From Phytoseiulus persimilis (lineage: Eukaryota > Arthropoda > Arachnida > Mesostigmata > Phytoseiidae), in contig CM075101.1 of the NCBI GenBank assembly GCA_037576195.1, forward strand, positions 10,850,001 to 10,914,000: a stretch of 64,000 nt of DNA, given 5' to 3'. This document shows positions 28,140-58,563 of the stretch, one piece after another; positions within the stretch are counted from its first letter, which is position 1, and each line of letters begins with the position of its first letter. The notes beneath the pieces were generated by a model. That model made no database searches, had not been told where the DNA came from, and saw only the letters and a program-made list of their open reading frames with translations. Made by a program: the position numbers and the translations under genes.

Positions 28140-28781
28140 GCACGGCAAGTTTCATGCCGATGCGTCTTTCCGGGGCCCAGAAATCAACAGCTGAACATAG
28201 GAGGTGAAGCGGTTTTTCCCCAGATCGGTCCCGGAATCACCCTCCCAGACTCGGAAAAGTATTCTCAGATGGGTCCGGGAATCACCCCCGTAGTCCCCAA
28301 AAGTATGCTCAGATCGAGCCAGGAATAGCTCCAAAGATCCCCAGAATTATGGTCAGATCGATCCCGGAATCACCTCCAAGGAGCCGAATGAAGCTCACAC
28401 GTGGGAACTGGCGTCTCCTACCCCTCCTAGGCAGCCCGTCGTGCCCCGTCCGGCTGACAACTTCTCTGAGCTCTTCGCGCCCAACGAGACTGAGTCCGAA
28501 GCTGAAACTGACGGTGAAATCGATGGACCTTCTTAAGCAGGATGACAATGGATGCATTGATTTCGAGGAGGCGATGCTCCACTGCCTTCTGCGTTTTCTT
28601 TCCGTCCGGGTTCGCTTCATTAGGCTCTGCGGAGGTGATTCCGGGACCAATTTGAGCATACTTCCCCGAGCTTGGGAGAGGTGATTCCGAGATCGATCTG
28701 GGGGCAACCCGCTTCATCGCCTATGTTCAGCTGCTGATTTCCCGGCCCCGCAAACTCGAATCGGGATGAAACTTGCCATGC
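28140..28781. mobile_element. foldback-like inverted-repeat element with 45-bp units in its arms
   Basis: The outer arms are inverted copies: the left begins GCACGGCAAGTTTCAT at 28140, and the right ends with the complement of GCATGGCAAGTTTCAT at 28781. Similarity continues inward for about 75 bp (both arms share CAGCTGAACATAGG) and then into diverged copies of the 45-bp unit found at 54.8-56.4 kb. The left arm holds three units reading on the minus strand; the right arm holds about one on the plus strand. The central 220 bp is unique and includes a short acidic open frame ending in TAA near 28535. No target duplication was found. It may be a foldback transposon or two related elements meeting head to head. 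Confidence 0.6.
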
Positions 28782-29499: not shown

Positions 29500-29736
29500 C
29501 ATGGGATCAATCTGACATAACTTTTCCAAGTCTTTTGAGGTTATTCAGGGGTCGACCCGACCATACTTTTGGAGTCTGATGAGGTGATTGTGGAGCAGAT
29601 CTGACCATAACAACATGCACCAATCAACCGAATTGGAAGATAGATTTAGTAATGATGCGGACCAAATGAAGAGTGAGAAAAGTGCCTCCATGCCAGGGAC
29701 CGCAGTCGAACCGCGCAAAGCGCGCGGGCTGGCTGG
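29500..29736 (+). mobile_element. degraded Helitron 3' part, second copy
   Basis: About 2.5 diverged 45-bp units (29500-29620) are followed by a tail matching the end of the Helitron at 54.7-56.6 kb. Shared words include GAGAAAAGTGCCTC and CCGCGC, and both end GGCTGG followed by host TT. A hairpin (CGCGC-AAA-GCGCG at 29712-29724) stands 12 nt before the CTGG terminus at 29733-29736, the usual Helitron 3' arrangement. The 5' end was not found, so this copy is truncated or too diverged. Confidence 0.6.
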
Positions 29737-53115: not shown

Positions 53116-54213
53116 CCATTTGATGAAGGGTCAAATAGAATCAAAGTATGATAATACTGAGACTCGGAAGAGCGACCGCGGGTGACAACAAGGGAACAAG
53201 GTCGAGGTATCGAGAATTTCTAAAATACATGCGAACCATGAAACCTCGGACGCAATCCAATTCACCTCTGTACATTTTGGCAATTCGGCACAACAAAAAG
53301 AAGAGACCGGATCGGTTTTCCCAAGACCGTTTCAAAAGCAGAGAGCTGGCCTAGCTCATGCGGTTTTGTTTTTCTCGGTTCTCTGCTGGTTTTTGAGGCT
53401 CTTGCGCTGGTATTCTCATATTTAGCAAGCGTCATCCGAGGTTATTTCCCTGAAATCAAATCCCTCGATAAGGAGCCTCTCTCGAGTTCGCACGGGTGAA
53501 CTCGTTGATGTTGACGATGATTTAGAGTCAATATTGTAGGATTGTAAATGATCTCGCCCCATTTAGCTCCAACTCTAGGTATCGCTCATTGTTCCCGCCA
53601 CCGCTAGAGAGCGCCCCGGCCATCTCCTCGGAGAAGATGGTGCGAGGGCGGAATTGGAAAGGAGAATTAGAAGTTGATCATAGAGAGAGAACAGAGAGTC
53701 ACTTTTTCGGCACACGGAATCGAGATCGGCGCAGTCGCGATACCCGGTCCAGATTCAAAGAGCCAGCGAATAAAAGCGAGTGAAACCCCAAGATCCGGCA
53801 GTTTTACAATATGGAAGCCTTACGAGCCATGTGAAGACGCGTGTACACTCGACTGAGACTCACAATTGCAGAGATATGCTTCAGCAGAAACGTTGAATGA
53901 TAACTCTCGAACGGGGAGATCCTGGGGCGGGAAACTCTCAATCAAGCAAGAACCCAAGGAATGATTAGTCGGCATGGGCACAGCCGGCCCATGGACACAG
54001 GCCGTTTATCGCAGGTAGGTTTCGTGCATCCCGTGATAAGGCATCCCGAAGAAATGGATGGTCCCAACTCTTCTGCACAGAACACCCGATTCACGAACAT
54101 CTCTCGCGGAATAAAATTGACTGTCACTCTACGGCAAGTAAGTCATATTCGATCGGAACCAATGTAATTTGTAGTATTTCGAGTCAGAAGTATATCGAGG
54201 ATCAAGGACGATA

Positions 54214-54234
54214 CAGTAGAACCTCAATTATATC
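54214..54234 (+). repeat. Tigger left terminal inverted repeat
   Basis: Starts CAGTAGAACCTC immediately after the TA at 54212-54213. It differs from the right repeat at two of 21 positions. Confidence 0.9.
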
Positions 54235-54263
54235 AATAATGGATGTCAGAATTCGTTGACTTA

Positions 54264-54358
54264 ATCGAGGTTCATTCATCGGAGTTGATACAATCGAGGT
54301 TCATTCATCGGAGTTGATACAATCGAGGTTCATTGATCGGAGTTGATACAATCGAGGT
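54264..54358 (+). repeat. 29-bp subterminal repeats of Tigger
   Basis: Three 29-bp units begin at 54264, 54293 and 54322 (each starting ATCGAGGTTCATT), followed by the first bases of a fourth at 54351. They share GTTGATA and ATCGAGGTT with the right-end repeats, which suggests transposase-binding sites, though that role is inferred. Confidence 0.85.
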
Positions 54359-54717
54359 TTTGAGGTACAGCATGCTCCAAACAGAATAGGATTCTTCGGG
54401 CCTTTCCTGGATCTAAAGTCCTTCGGATCGTTCATAAAATATATGAAACAGTATATACGTTCAGCAGAAGTTCAGTTGAATGAATAATAAAATAATTTTG
54501 TCTTGTCAACACAACTCTTTCGCAAGGGCTCCGAGCCCGAGCTTTGAGATGGCTTCGAGAAAGCTTCATGAATGTGACGGCATGTCGAGATTGCTTTCGT
54601 CGCATTGCGTTCCGAGCATTCGGAGTGACAACACGCATCGTGCTCTTGCCTCTTCAGTCATCAAGTTTTGGTGCGCGGAGACTCTGTCTCAGAGAAAGCC
54701 GAGAACGGTACTGAGCA

Positions 54718-56554
54718 TCCTTACTATATATAATCGGCTTAGTCTGTCAGTTTGTCTGTCAGTTTGTCCGCACTTTTTCTGAAAGACATGAAGGTGATTC
54801 TGGGACCTATCTGAACATACTCTCCCGAGTCTGGAGAGGTGATTCCGGTACGAGTCTGACTATACTTTTCAGAAGCTGGAGGGGTGATTCTAGAACCAAT
54901 CTGACCATACTTTCCAAAACGTGGAGGGGTGATTCTAGAACCAATCTGACCATACTTTTCAAAACGTGGAGGGGTGATTTCGGAACCGATCTGACCATTA
55001 CTTTTCAAGTCTGGAGGGGTGATTCCGAGACCAATCTGAGCATTACTTCCCAACTCTGGAGGGGTGATTCCGAGACCAATCTGAGTATTACTTCCCAACT
55101 CTGGAGGGGTGATTTCGAGACCAATCTGAGCATTACTTTCCAACTCTGGAGGGGTGATTCCGAGACCAATCTGAGCATTACTTTCCAACTCTGGAGGGGT
55201 GATTCCGAGACCAATCTGAGCATTACTTTCCAACTCTGGAGGGGTGATTTCGAGACCAATCTGAGCATTACTTTCCAACTCTGGAGGGGGGATTCCGAGA
55301 CCAATCTGAGCATTACTTTCCAACTCTGGAGGGGTGATTCCGGAACCGATCTGACCATTACTTTTCAAGTCTGGAGGGGTGATTCCGAGACCAATCTGAG
55401 CATTACTTTCCAACTCTGGAGGGGTGATTCCGAGACCAATCTGAGCATTACTTTCCAACTCTGGAGGGGTGATTCCGAGACCAATCTGAGCATTATTTCC
55501 CAACTCTGGAGGGGTGATTCCGAGACCAATCTGAGCATTACTTTCCAACTCTGGAGGGGTGATTTCGAGACCAATCTGAGCATTACTTTCCAACTCTGGA
55601 GGGGTGATTCCGAGACCAATCTGAGCATTACTTTCCAACTCTGGAGGGGTGATTCCGAGACCAATCTGAGCATTATTTCCCAACTCTGGAGGGGTGATTC
55701 CGAGACCAATCTGAGCATTACTTTCCAACTCTGGAGGGGTGATTTCGAGACCAATCTGAGCATTACTTTCCAACTCTGGAGGGGTGATTCCGAGACCAAT
55801 CTGAGCATTACTTTCCAACTCTGGAGGGGTGATTCCGAGACCAATCTGAGCATTATTTCCCAACTCTGGAGGGGTGATTCCGAGACCAATCTGAGCATTA
55901 CTTTCCAACTCTGGAGGGGTGATTTCGAGACCAATCTGAGCATTACTTTCCAACTCTGGAGGGGTGATTCCGAGACCAATCTGAGCATTATTTCCCAACT
56001 CTGGAGGGGTGATTCCGAGACCAATCTGAGCATTATTTCCCAACTCTGGAGGGGTGATTCCGAGACCAATCTGAGCATTACTTTCCAACTCTGGAGGGGT
56101 GATTTCGAGACCAATCTGAGCATTACTTTCCAACTCTGGAGGGGTGATTCCGAGAGCAATCTGAGCATTACTTCTCAACTCTGGAGGGGTGATTCCGAGA
56201 CCAATCTGAGCATTACTTCTCAACTCTGGAGGGGTGATTCCGAGACCAATCTGAGCATCACTTCCCAACTCTGGAGGGGTGATTCCGAGACCAATCTGAG
56301 CATTACTTCTCAACTCTGGAGGGGTGATTCCGGGGTCAATCTGAGCATTACTTCCCAACTCTGGAGGGGTGATTCCGAGACCAATCTGAGCATTACTTCC
56401 CAACTCTGGAGGGGTGATTCCGGGGTCAATCTGACCATATTTCTCAAAATCAGAATGCTGACCCAGTGAAGGGAGAGAAAAGTGCCTCGATGGCAGGGAA
56501 CGCCGTCCAACCGCGCGCAGCGCGGCCGACTCCAGTCGGCCAAAGGCCGGCTGG
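54718..56554 (+). mobile_element. non-autonomous Helitron inserted in the Tigger transposase
   Basis: The 5' end reads TCCTTACTATATATAATC, close to the TC...TACTA-type Helitron terminus. The 3' end is CTGG (56551-56554), fitting CTRR, and lies nine bases after an 8-bp-stem hairpin (GGCCGACT-CC-AGTCGGCC, 56524-56541). Insertion is between host A (54717) and T (56555) without target duplication, as Helitrons do; removing it rejoins the transposase frame as ...VLS-IQDKLF.... The interior is a 12-bp double repeat (54742-54765), 36 copies of a 45-bp unit and a GC-rich tail, with no Rep/helicase. The same tail recurs at 29.66-29.74 kb, supporting a mobile family. Confidence 0.8.
54796..56440. repeat. 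45-bp minisatellite, 36 full copies, with a 180-bp higher-order repeat
   Basis: Units start every 45 bp from 54796 to 56416, the last incomplete. The common unit begins GATTCCGAGACCAATCTGAG and ends AACTCTGGAGGGGT. Outer left units are more diverged. From 55381 to 56100 the array is organised as four 180-bp blocks of four units: the second and third (55561-55740, 55741-55920) are identical, and the first and fourth differ by only one or a few bases, showing recent homogenisation or unequal exchange. Because 45 is a multiple of three and the unit lacks stops, the minus strand stays open for 613 codons (repeat TPPELESNAQIGLGI), and a second minus frame is open as well. The frame is a by-product, not a gene. 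Confidence 0.97.
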
Positions 56555-58489
56555 TTCAAGATAAATTGTTCATTATCCAATCCCTGGAAGGAGGCACAGG
56601 GGTTGGAGTCCTAGCAACGAGGTACAATGTCTCCGTTTCTGCCGTTTCGCGAATGAAGAAGGATGCGCGAAGCCTGAAGAATTACGCGGAAGCAGTAAAC
56701 GAACATCGTGGACGCGCTAATGCTAAGGCTATGAAGACACCTAAGAATGAAGTTCTGGATGCGGCCTTGATTATGTGGTTCGAACAGAAACGGACGCTTC
56801 GATTCCCTGTGTCGGGCTATGTTATCTGTGAGAAAGCATTGGGCCTGAATCAACGACTCGGAGGAGACCCTAATTTCAAGGCGAGCCAGGGTTGGTTGGA
56901 AAAGTTCAAGCAACGACATGGGATACGCCAACGGGGACTCGAAGGTGAAAGAATTTCTGCGAACGCAGAAGCAGCCGAGTCTTTCGGAAACGAATTCAGA
57001 GCGTTCGTAGCATCTGAGGGGTATGATCCTGATTTTGTCTTCAACGCAGTGAAACTGCACTGTTCTACAAAGCGTTGCCAAGCAAATCCCCGGCATCTCG
57101 TCGAGAACAATCTGTTCCAGGGCACAAAAGTAGCAAAGAGCGGATCACTGCCATGGTGTGCGCTAACATGACTGGGACCCATAAAATTCCGATGTTCGTT
57201 ATTGGAAAATCCCAGAATCCGAGATGCTTCCGGGGAACGAGTGTTCCAGTGGTTTACAAGGGCCAGAAGAAGGCTTGGATGACGAGTGACATCTTCAGGG
57301 AATGGTATGATCACACTTTCCTTCCCGACGTGAGAGCGTTCCAGGAAGTTCTGGGGAAAGATGGGAAAGTACTTCTGCTTTTAGACAATGCGCCGTCACA
57401 TCCCCAGAAAGAGTCTCTCGAAAGGCAAAACGGAAAGTTCACCGTTATCTTTCTGCCTCCGAACGTCACAGCTGTTTTGCAGCCCATGGGCCAAGGGGTT
57501 AATGCGTCACTGAAACGGTTGTGCCGGAAGCAGTTATTACTCAAATTATTCTTGTCAGATGATCCTGATGACATCGACGCAATGCGGAATTTCATGAAGA
57601 GCATCAACATCAGAGATGCCTGTTTCATGTTGGCACAAGCTTGGGATTCCGTGAAGCCCACTACTCTGTGTAACGCTTGGAATACGCTCACGGGCACTCA
57701 GTCAGCTTGCGCCGCAGAACCAGCTTCCCTCGAGTTCGGAGCTTTCGGGGAACGACTTCCCGACATCCGAGGCTTCGAAGACTGCGACAGTGCCAATCTT
57801 TCAGAATGGTTGGATTGCGATTTTGCGTTAGAAAATTCGCACTACCTCACCGATGAGGAAATTATGGCTACGGTCACGGAACAAGAAGAGCCTCACGGTT
57901 CGAGAGAATCAGGAGATGAAGAAGCATCACCTCCTTTTTCTCCGATTACCTCTCGACCGACAGCCGCGGAAGCGGTCATGGCATTCGACGTTGCCCTGCA
58001 ATGGTTGGAGAACACCACTGAGTGCGAGCCTTTAGATTTGTCCCGATTGGCGCGTCTCCGCGCTGCAGCGTTGGCAATGGACGAGTCAGCCCCAAGCAAC
58101 GCTGCCGAGTAAATATCGGGAAAGTTCGGTCGAGAAATCAGAAGCATCGTGGATACGGTGGAAGCAAAAGCGAACGCTGCGGTGGAATCTCACTCACAGT
58201 CTGAGCTGTCGAATTGTTATGGGCATATGTGAGCGCAGAAATCGGATCCCGTCTCATCGAAATTGAAATGCTTGTATGAACATCAGTCTGAATCTTATTT
58301 TCAGCAGTCTCTGTTCGATCTGAACTTTTCGAAATTCTTCTGAGCGAAGAATAAATATACGTTCGTTCCATCTGTTAGCCTCATCGAAGTTGACTTTTTC
58401 CAGGAAGCTGACTTTAGGCGAGCTGGATTTGATAGAGATTGAGCTTTTCAAATAATTGGGGTTTTTACCGTCTTGAATTGATCTGATCG

Positions 58490-58556
58490 CGAGTTGATAT
58501 AATGGAGGTTGATATAACTGAGGTTGATTCAATGGAGGTTGATATAATCGAGGTTT
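58490..58556 (+). repeat. right subterminal repeats of Tigger
   Basis: Four short tandem units of roughly 14-16 bp built on GAGGTTGATATAAT or close variants run up to the right terminal repeat. They resemble the left-end 29-bp units in the GTTGATA core. Confidence 0.75.
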
Positions 58557-58561
58557 TACTG
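58541..58561 (-). repeat. Tigger right terminal inverted repeat
   Basis: Ends GGTTTTACTG directly before the TA at 58562-58563. Confidence 0.9.
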
Positions 58562-58563
58562 TA

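Follow-up and report, generated by a model that had tools for sequence, protein, structure and literature searches.

A minisatellite-bearing non-autonomous Helitron nested in a Tigger element of Phytoseiulus persimilis, and its probable autonomous partner

Results

The locus

The stretch of Phytoseiulus persimilis DNA analysed here (the window; 64,000 nucleotides, C1:10850001-10914000) contains a Tigger/pogo element at 54214-58561 with a Helitron nested inside it. The genome searches covered 181 Mb in 127 contigs, four of them large (54.7, 52.0, 38.9 and 28.1 Mb). For a window gene similar to monocarboxylate transporters, two of 3655 candidate proteins match at E 1e-10 or better, and both belong to mesostigmatid mites: Galendromus occidentalis (38% identity) and Tropilaelaps mercedesae (35%). 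The features are as follows (^ marks an insertion point).

54214..54717, + strand: left part of the Tigger/pogo element, with terminal inverted repeat (TA at 54212-54213), subterminal 29-bp repeats and the start of the transposase frame
54717..54718: left insertion junction A^TC (from the sequence read and the empty sites)
54718..56554, + strand: non-autonomous Helitron of 1837 bp with both ends present (from termini, empty sites and other genomic copies)
54718..54792, + strand: 5' terminus TCCTTACTATATATAATCGG... with GTCAGTTT-like repeats (from genome matches of the first 75 and first 27 bases)
54793..56457, + strand: 45-bp minisatellite of 37 units, with special first units, a homogenised core and a special last unit (from TRF, 54793-56438, and unit decomposition)
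56458..56554, + strand: 97-bp tail and 3' terminus ending in CTGG (from end matches, the fold and the partner's last 48 bp)
56511-56525 and 56532-56554: 3' hairpins (alternative arms 56524-56531/56534-56541)
56554..56555: right insertion junction CTGG^T (from the sequence read and the empty sites)
56555..58561, + strand: right part of the Tigger/pogo element, with the remaining transposase, terminal inverted repeat and TA at 58562-58563

The host, which we take to be a Tigger/pogo element, has terminal inverted repeats identical at 24 of 26 bases (TA side included), a TA on both sides, and the Tc5-type DNA-binding and DDE_1 domains of that group; a domain scan of the right part placed HTH_Tnp_Tc5 (E 2.4e-16) and DDE_1 (E 7.6e-44) to the right of the insert. 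The transposase frame rejoins across the insert (AGC A^TT CAA GAT). Independently of the insert this Tigger copy is broken, its right part being in two overlapping frames (overlap 57033-57171). Short subterminal tandem repeats stand beside both Tigger ends (29 bp at 54263-54359, 15 bp at 58493-58555).

At the left junction the sequence reads AGCA followed by TCCTTACTATATATAATC (54717/54718) and at the right junction GGCCGGCTGG followed by TTCAAGAT (56554/56555), the position of the cut being ambiguous by one base, a T common to the element's first base and the right flank. The segment 56500-56554 folds into two hairpins at -18.5 kcal/mol, against a shuffle mean of -12.64 (sd 2.03, z -2.89), and none of 200 shuffles folded equally well. 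Terminal or subterminal inverted repeats above chance were absent when the 5' 75 bases were compared with the reversed 3' 115 bases (longest word 8, matched by 19 of 200 shuffles). The element combines the canonical Helitron characters, i.e. 5'-TC, CTRR with a 3' hairpin, insertion at A/T without target duplication and a lack of terminal inverted repeats, with a Rep-helicase partner in the same genome whose ends are similar, not identical (88-93% at the 5' end, 96% over the last 48 bases). The initial annotation had described a non-autonomous Helitron caught inside a Tigger transposase, and the features it named lie where it had placed them; the TC terminus, the hairpin with CTGG, the A/T target and the rejoined frame are all present. 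Elsewhere in the window there are traces of an older relative, with decayed minisatellite pieces (69-85% by piece) and a Helitron tail (83%) at 28221-28379 (-), 28625-28700 (+) and 29655-29724 (+).

Empty sites in other Tigger copies

Both Tigger flanks were joined to a query of 263 bases, and the genome search with it returned 14 matches. Nine of these span the insertion point without a gap within 30 bases on either side: L031-L036 cover the full 263 bases at 90-96% identity, L037-L039 cover 166-196 bases, and eight are gapless throughout, L039 having a single 1-base gap farther from the junction. The junction reads AGCATTCAAGAT exactly in six of them and differs at one of 12 bases in the other three (after the junction in L038, before it in L035 and L036). 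Four of the nine crossing Tiggers come from one region of C3 (33.8-34.4 Mb) and are possibly not independent observations. The remaining five matches comprise the window's own two halves, L042, which stops before the junction, and the 78-79% identical L043 and L044, of which the former ends 4 bases past the junction and the latter starts beyond it; no Helitron end was detected in either L043 or L044.

The empty paralogue that had been predicted as proof of insertion was thus found nine times, six times letter for letter, and none of the nine crossing Tiggers carries the insert at this site, whose presence there in paralogues had been named as fatal to the claim. The empty copies also fix both ends of the Helitron to the base, apart from the one shared T. 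Because the Helitron is nested in the Tigger, the Tigger is the older element, as initially proposed, and divergence agrees: among the Tigger paralogues that match all 263 bases the closest has 96% identity, and Helitron ends identical to those of the window copy occur elsewhere.

L039 and L042 (C3:34366465-34377734) are apparent halves of one Tigger, 11 kb apart. The break falls some 35-40 bases to the left of the junction, and near it, in L039, the family's 5' end is represented by two fragments of 27 and 31 bases. In L032, L033 and L034 a related Helitron tail (92-95% over 79 bases) is located about 1.2 kb downstream of the junction.

A large family with constant ends

The first 75 bases of the element gave at least 42 matches (40 of 441 first-look candidates scored) and the last 115 bases at least 40 (40 of 848 scored); ends identical to those of the window copy were found elsewhere at two loci (75/75 bases) and thirteen loci (115/115), respectively. 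Whole-genome pattern counts allowing at most one mismatch yielded 265 sites for the first 27 bases and 237 for the last 31 bases plus the flanking T, with zero for the reversed-pattern control in each case.

Thirty loci were fetched for each end, the window copy included. The 3' end is CTGG in 29 and TTGG in one, a T follows it in all 30, and the 30 3' flanks are all different. One locus was dropped from 5'-end scoring as 5'-truncated, so that a TC start is present in 29 of 30; the base before it is A in 25 of 29, G in three (one duplicated flank) and T in one. The proposed search with both ends therefore gave what had been expected of it, many copies with both ends in common and A/T flanks, and the other outcome named as refuting, a lack of further copies with these ends, did not occur. 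The 3' flank is A/T-rich at +6..+11 (158 of 180 bases) versus +12..+31 (310 of 600), with a Fisher P of 5e-20 that pools bases as if they were independent. An AT preference on the 3' side is likewise reported for Helraiser (PMC4778049).

L020 (C1:8589645) holds two copies exactly head to head (GGA^TCC), the arrangement expected if one copy had inserted at the A^TC border of another, older one. L009 (the same locus as L030) and L024 each have two 5' ends 0.9-1.1 kb apart; with an identical flank at both 5' ends, L024 looks like a duplication. The best matches listed by our search of open papers include no description of the array-bearing Helitron family (subscription papers and Repbase lay outside its scope).

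The 45-bp minisatellite

TRF reports the 45-bp array at 54793-56438 with 36.6 copies, 92% matches and 0% indels. Eleven copies of the element with both ends readable, that of the window included, are 446-2698 bp long, and ten of them were resolved into 6-56 units each (in L052 the parser halted after the first unit). All ten arrays start with special units that closely resemble one another and finish with a particular last unit, in some cases in variant form, after which comes the tail of 97 or 98 bp; between these edge units the core is homogenised and variable among the ten. C1:4895632 and L070 share long runs of unit order with block differences.

Exact matches to a 17-base core of the unit number 32,268 genome-wide (control 0), which sets a floor of 1.45 Mb or 0.80% of the genome. 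A calibrated estimate comes to about 53,000 units or 2.4 Mb, based on ten copies in which the exact core is present in some 61% of units (16-75% among copies). For the phytoseiid Neoseiulus cucumeris a genome of 173 Mb with 0.99% Helitron is reported (PMC6902594). Since the units exceed 237-265 copies times 37 several-fold, many of them should reside in longer arrays, older copies or other Helitron types. A second type of 5' end, beginning with TCTATCATAAAAATC, is present at 157 sites (at most two mismatches). In L079 and L081 it continues into the array, as it does with minor deviations in L080 and L082. Near the start of its contig, C1:25522-31554 shows the family's 5' end followed by a run of array units of about 5.7 kb.

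A protein-coding role of the array, which is open for 584 aa on the + and 623 aa on the - strand, is not supported: among 54 distinct interior unit types from ten copies (types with more than eight changes from the consensus left out), changes fall 53/90/28 on codon positions 1/2/3. The long open frames arise because the 45-bp unit has no stops in those frames. Compared with shuffles the array folds poorly (z +4.11, 200 of 200 shuffles folding better). A description of it as strikingly unstructured is weakened by a comparison with tandems of shuffled single units, since equally low structure is seen in 5 of 300 for the + and 13 of 300 for the - strand; the low single-strand structure is suggestive only, and the values for the two strands are not independent.

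The probable autonomous partner

A PF14214 profile search of the genome gave 101 matches. The sequence around one of them reads as a complete element:

C3:24444287-24453759: probable autonomous partner, 9473 bp from the outermost 5' end (from sequence reading around the PF14214 match)

Its gene is an unbroken Rep-helicase frame of 1951 aa with Helitron_like_N (E 2.1e-61), PIF1 helicase (E 4.5e-53) and PIF1 2B domains. Upstream of the gene the family's 5' end occurs five times in a stack (88-93% identity), together with 55 units of the 45-bp array. The first six units match those of the window at 38-45 of 45 bases, the fourth being identical to the window's fourth (45/45), and the last 48 bases are 96% identical to those of the window element. 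No match was found in the partner for the roughly 55 bases that precede these 48 in the window element. In L081 a Helitron with the other, TCTATCATAAAAATC-type 5' end terminates in almost the complete tail (102 bases at 92% identity). The missing tail bases and the tail shared with L081 together mean that the small family is not a simple deletion of the partner, and recombination appears likelier than one clean deletion as its origin. The differences in units and 5' ends mark the partner as a relative and not the immediate source.

The partner protein has at least 44 matches in the genome (24 of 1826 first-look candidates scored). Among the scored matches only the partner itself covers residues 1-1951 in one piece without a stop, and the others at 93-94% identity are partial and contain stops. 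A closer partner may have been overlooked, 24 of the 1826 candidates having been scored and the flanks of one unbroken family element read. A broken relative at C1:21.1 Mb consists of pieces of 36-94% identity (the best three 91-94%) and has a 92% match to the last 48 bases; here, too, the array lies directly upstream of the gene, with a reversed small copy nested in that place. Two members of the autonomous lineage are thus associated with the array. The 'small family' of the initial annotation is wrong if few copies are meant (265 and 237 end sites), and the partner removes the view that the array is peculiar to the small element.

Helitrons with a distantly related Rep-helicase (37-40% identity; C3:245624-250597 and C4:1883133-1886720) were considered as owners of the array and rejected on reading L079 and L081, where the array is part of a small Helitron in its own right (5' TCTATCATAAAAATC, 3' CTGG) that adjoins the start of the large element. 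L079 (C3:250500-254500) and L081 (C4:1886600-1890100) show the same row of three abutting Helitrons: one ending in CTAG, the small array-bearing one ending in CTGG, and the element with the distant Rep-helicase. These neighbours may travel together, or the segment may have been duplicated.

Surroundings of the partner and stacked 5' ends

The partner's 3' flank is the inverted 5' end of another copy, and the matching half is missing from its 5' flank. A 43-base stretch ending in CCTATACATC (42 or 43 of 43 bases) precedes Helitrons with different 5' ends in L076, L080 and L082, where its last TC forms the first two bases of the Helitron; it is also present in L079, and a 40/43 copy stands inverted after the partner in L075 (C3:24446500-24456400).

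An A precedes the partner's four inner 5' ends as well as one inner end each in L013 and L019, and in the last two it is a base of the array (GGTGA^T, CCAA^T), as a nested A^T insertion would leave it. To judge from the flanks, the family's 5' end read backwards (CCGA^TTATATATAG) may itself serve as a target: both the partner and L066 have it as their 3' flank, and the 5' flank of L013 stops there. It is not continued, however, by the 5' flank of the partner or by the 3' flank of L013, and the flanks of L013 give no one clean target, which means that these two loci are rearranged or that their reading is incomplete.

Stacked 5' ends could have arisen by repeated nested A^T insertion followed by a transfer that started at the outermost 5' end and stopped at the first 3' end, or, as a published alternative has it, by rolling-circle amplification (PMC12628747). 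The several kinds of junction read favour neither route.

Kinship of the Rep-helicase

A tree of the Rep region was built from 35 sequences, the partner and 34 chosen from the best 120 of 2085 matches. The partner groups with eight strongylid nematode sequences (support 100/100), the nearest being Nippostrongylus at weaker support (92/85), and three Galendromus sequences fall into another group together with one Ancylostoma and three Caenorhabditis sequences. Among the matches listed, the best identity is 61% to Haemonchus contortus versus 47% to Galendromus. This comparison of proteins, drawn from the top matches, suggests a horizontal transfer that was not recent.

Discussion

Our analysis identifies the insert, with high confidence, as a canonical non-autonomous Helitron that entered an A/T site in the N-terminal coding part of an older Tigger and was moved in trans by the Rep-helicase of a related Helitron in the same genome. 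As far as sequences can establish it, the insertion, both ends, the empty sites, the copy number, the unbroken partner gene and the array upstream of that gene are secure. The enzyme would have come from the partner or from a recent sister of it. A single strand would be peeled off from the TC to the 3' hairpin and then joined at A^T. In Helraiser the 5' TC is joined to the target A and the 3' CTRR to the T (PMC4778049), and the hairpin close to the 3' end marks where the copy terminates (PMC4778049, PMC12628747). Ends, flanks and empty sites in the mite fit every step of the Helraiser scheme that leaves a trace. The small family itself probably arose by recombination, which would have united a 5' end and array of the partner's type with a tail that is also found in Helitrons with the other 5' end. 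Array length would then change by slippage or unequal exchange, the edge units staying nearly fixed.

The best-surviving alternative, which we nevertheless consider unlikely, holds that a small Helitron captured a host satellite and that the array in the autonomous element stems from a second, independent capture or from conversion. The unit does occur in Helitrons with the TCTATCATAAAAATC 5' end, and the units by far exceed the content of 237-265 copies, so some arrays may stand alone. Against capture, the partner's array follows the 5' end just as it does in the small copies, down to the identical fourth unit, and the second, broken partner likewise carries the array upstream of its gene.

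Much less probable still is a Helentron-type element (HINE/DINE-1-like), similar to many repeat-bearing rolling-circle elements of arthropods and molluscs. An endonuclease domain in the autonomous partner is the mark of Helentrons and HINEs, and none is among the seven Pfam families found in the 1951-aa protein. Tandem arrays are possible in HINEs and DINE-1-like elements (PMC7492417, PMC4067079), but the mite element ends in TC...CTGG with a hairpin at the terminus and sits at A^T with a mixed A/T-rich 3' flank, and the subterminal inverted repeats and T-rich preference of the HINEs described in PMC4067079 are both lacking here.

The notion that the insert is original to a Tigger subfamily and that the empty copies are deletions, for which no support was found, has practically no chance of being right: nine Tiggers join at the identical point with continuous sequence, which refutes it for the loci examined, and at other loci the same ends stand next to unrelated sequence (no two of 30 loci share a 3' flank).

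Returning to the canonical Helitron moved in trans, its array occurs in the partner, in the small copies and with different types of 5' end, and folds less than most shuffled units. On this basis we put forward, as speculation, that the 45-bp array, far from being passive filler, is a working and exchangeable module of a group of mite Helitrons which has reached about 1% of the genome through rolling-circle copying, in a lineage horizontally transferred in link with parasitic nematodes.

In this one genome a readable insertion can be joined to the empty sites that match it, to the older element that hosts it, to a large family and to a probable partner with an uninterrupted gene. The value of the case lies in this completeness and in the presence of the array inside an autonomous element whose gene is unbroken. 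It provides a system in which two matters can be put to the test, the way in which Helitrons generate and disperse satellite-like arrays and the origin of arrays that combine several 5' ends with one 3' end.

Comparison with known systems

Array-bearing Helitrons and Helentrons are already known from flies, oysters and worms (PMC3833285, PMC4067079, PMC7492417, PMC4039745). New in the mite are the likely autonomous partner with the same minisatellite, the amplified unit core common to a second type of 5' end, and a Rep-helicase that groups with those of nematodes. The host matches the Tigger/pogo group in HTH_Tnp_Tc5 and DDE_1 domains, terminal inverted repeats and TA on both sides, the frame of this copy being broken.

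Bat Helraiser/HeliBat shares the 5'-TC, the 3' palindrome with CTRR, the A^T target and the AT-rich 3' side; it differs as an active element that was reconstructed and tested, and the available text describes no minisatellite in it (PMC4778049). HelitronY4_CE of Caenorhabditis elegans is likewise a Helitron with tandem repeats, but its units of 15 bp and 40 bp are unlike the 45-bp unit (PMC4039745). In DINE-1/HINE elements of Drosophila and other insects some copies consist to about half of simple or tandem repeats, and they are linked to partners at more than 95% identity; those autonomous partners, however, are Helentrons (PMC4067079). Cg_HINE of Crassostrea gigas resembles the mite family as a non-autonomous element with a central satellite-like array and variously combined array and flank modules, but it is of the Helentron type and is presented in the available text as having no linkable autonomous partner, whereas a probable one exists here (PMC7492417).

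Helitron-2 of Drosophila virilis is 9.1 kb long and has 154-bp tandem repeats near its 5' end (positions 237-1087); as in the mite, the array is close to the 5' end, and its spread was mainly via truncated copies (PMC3833285). The unit differs (154 bp, four in the consensus), and the abundant copies are 5' fragments in contrast to the both-ended small copies of the mite (PMC3833285). Finally, the Helitron arrays of plants (Xiong et al. 2016, as reviewed in PMC12628747) have several 5' ends and a single 3' end, as does the partner; according to the review these are partly decayed, truncated copies, whereas in the mite five 5' ends precede an unbroken Rep-helicase gene.
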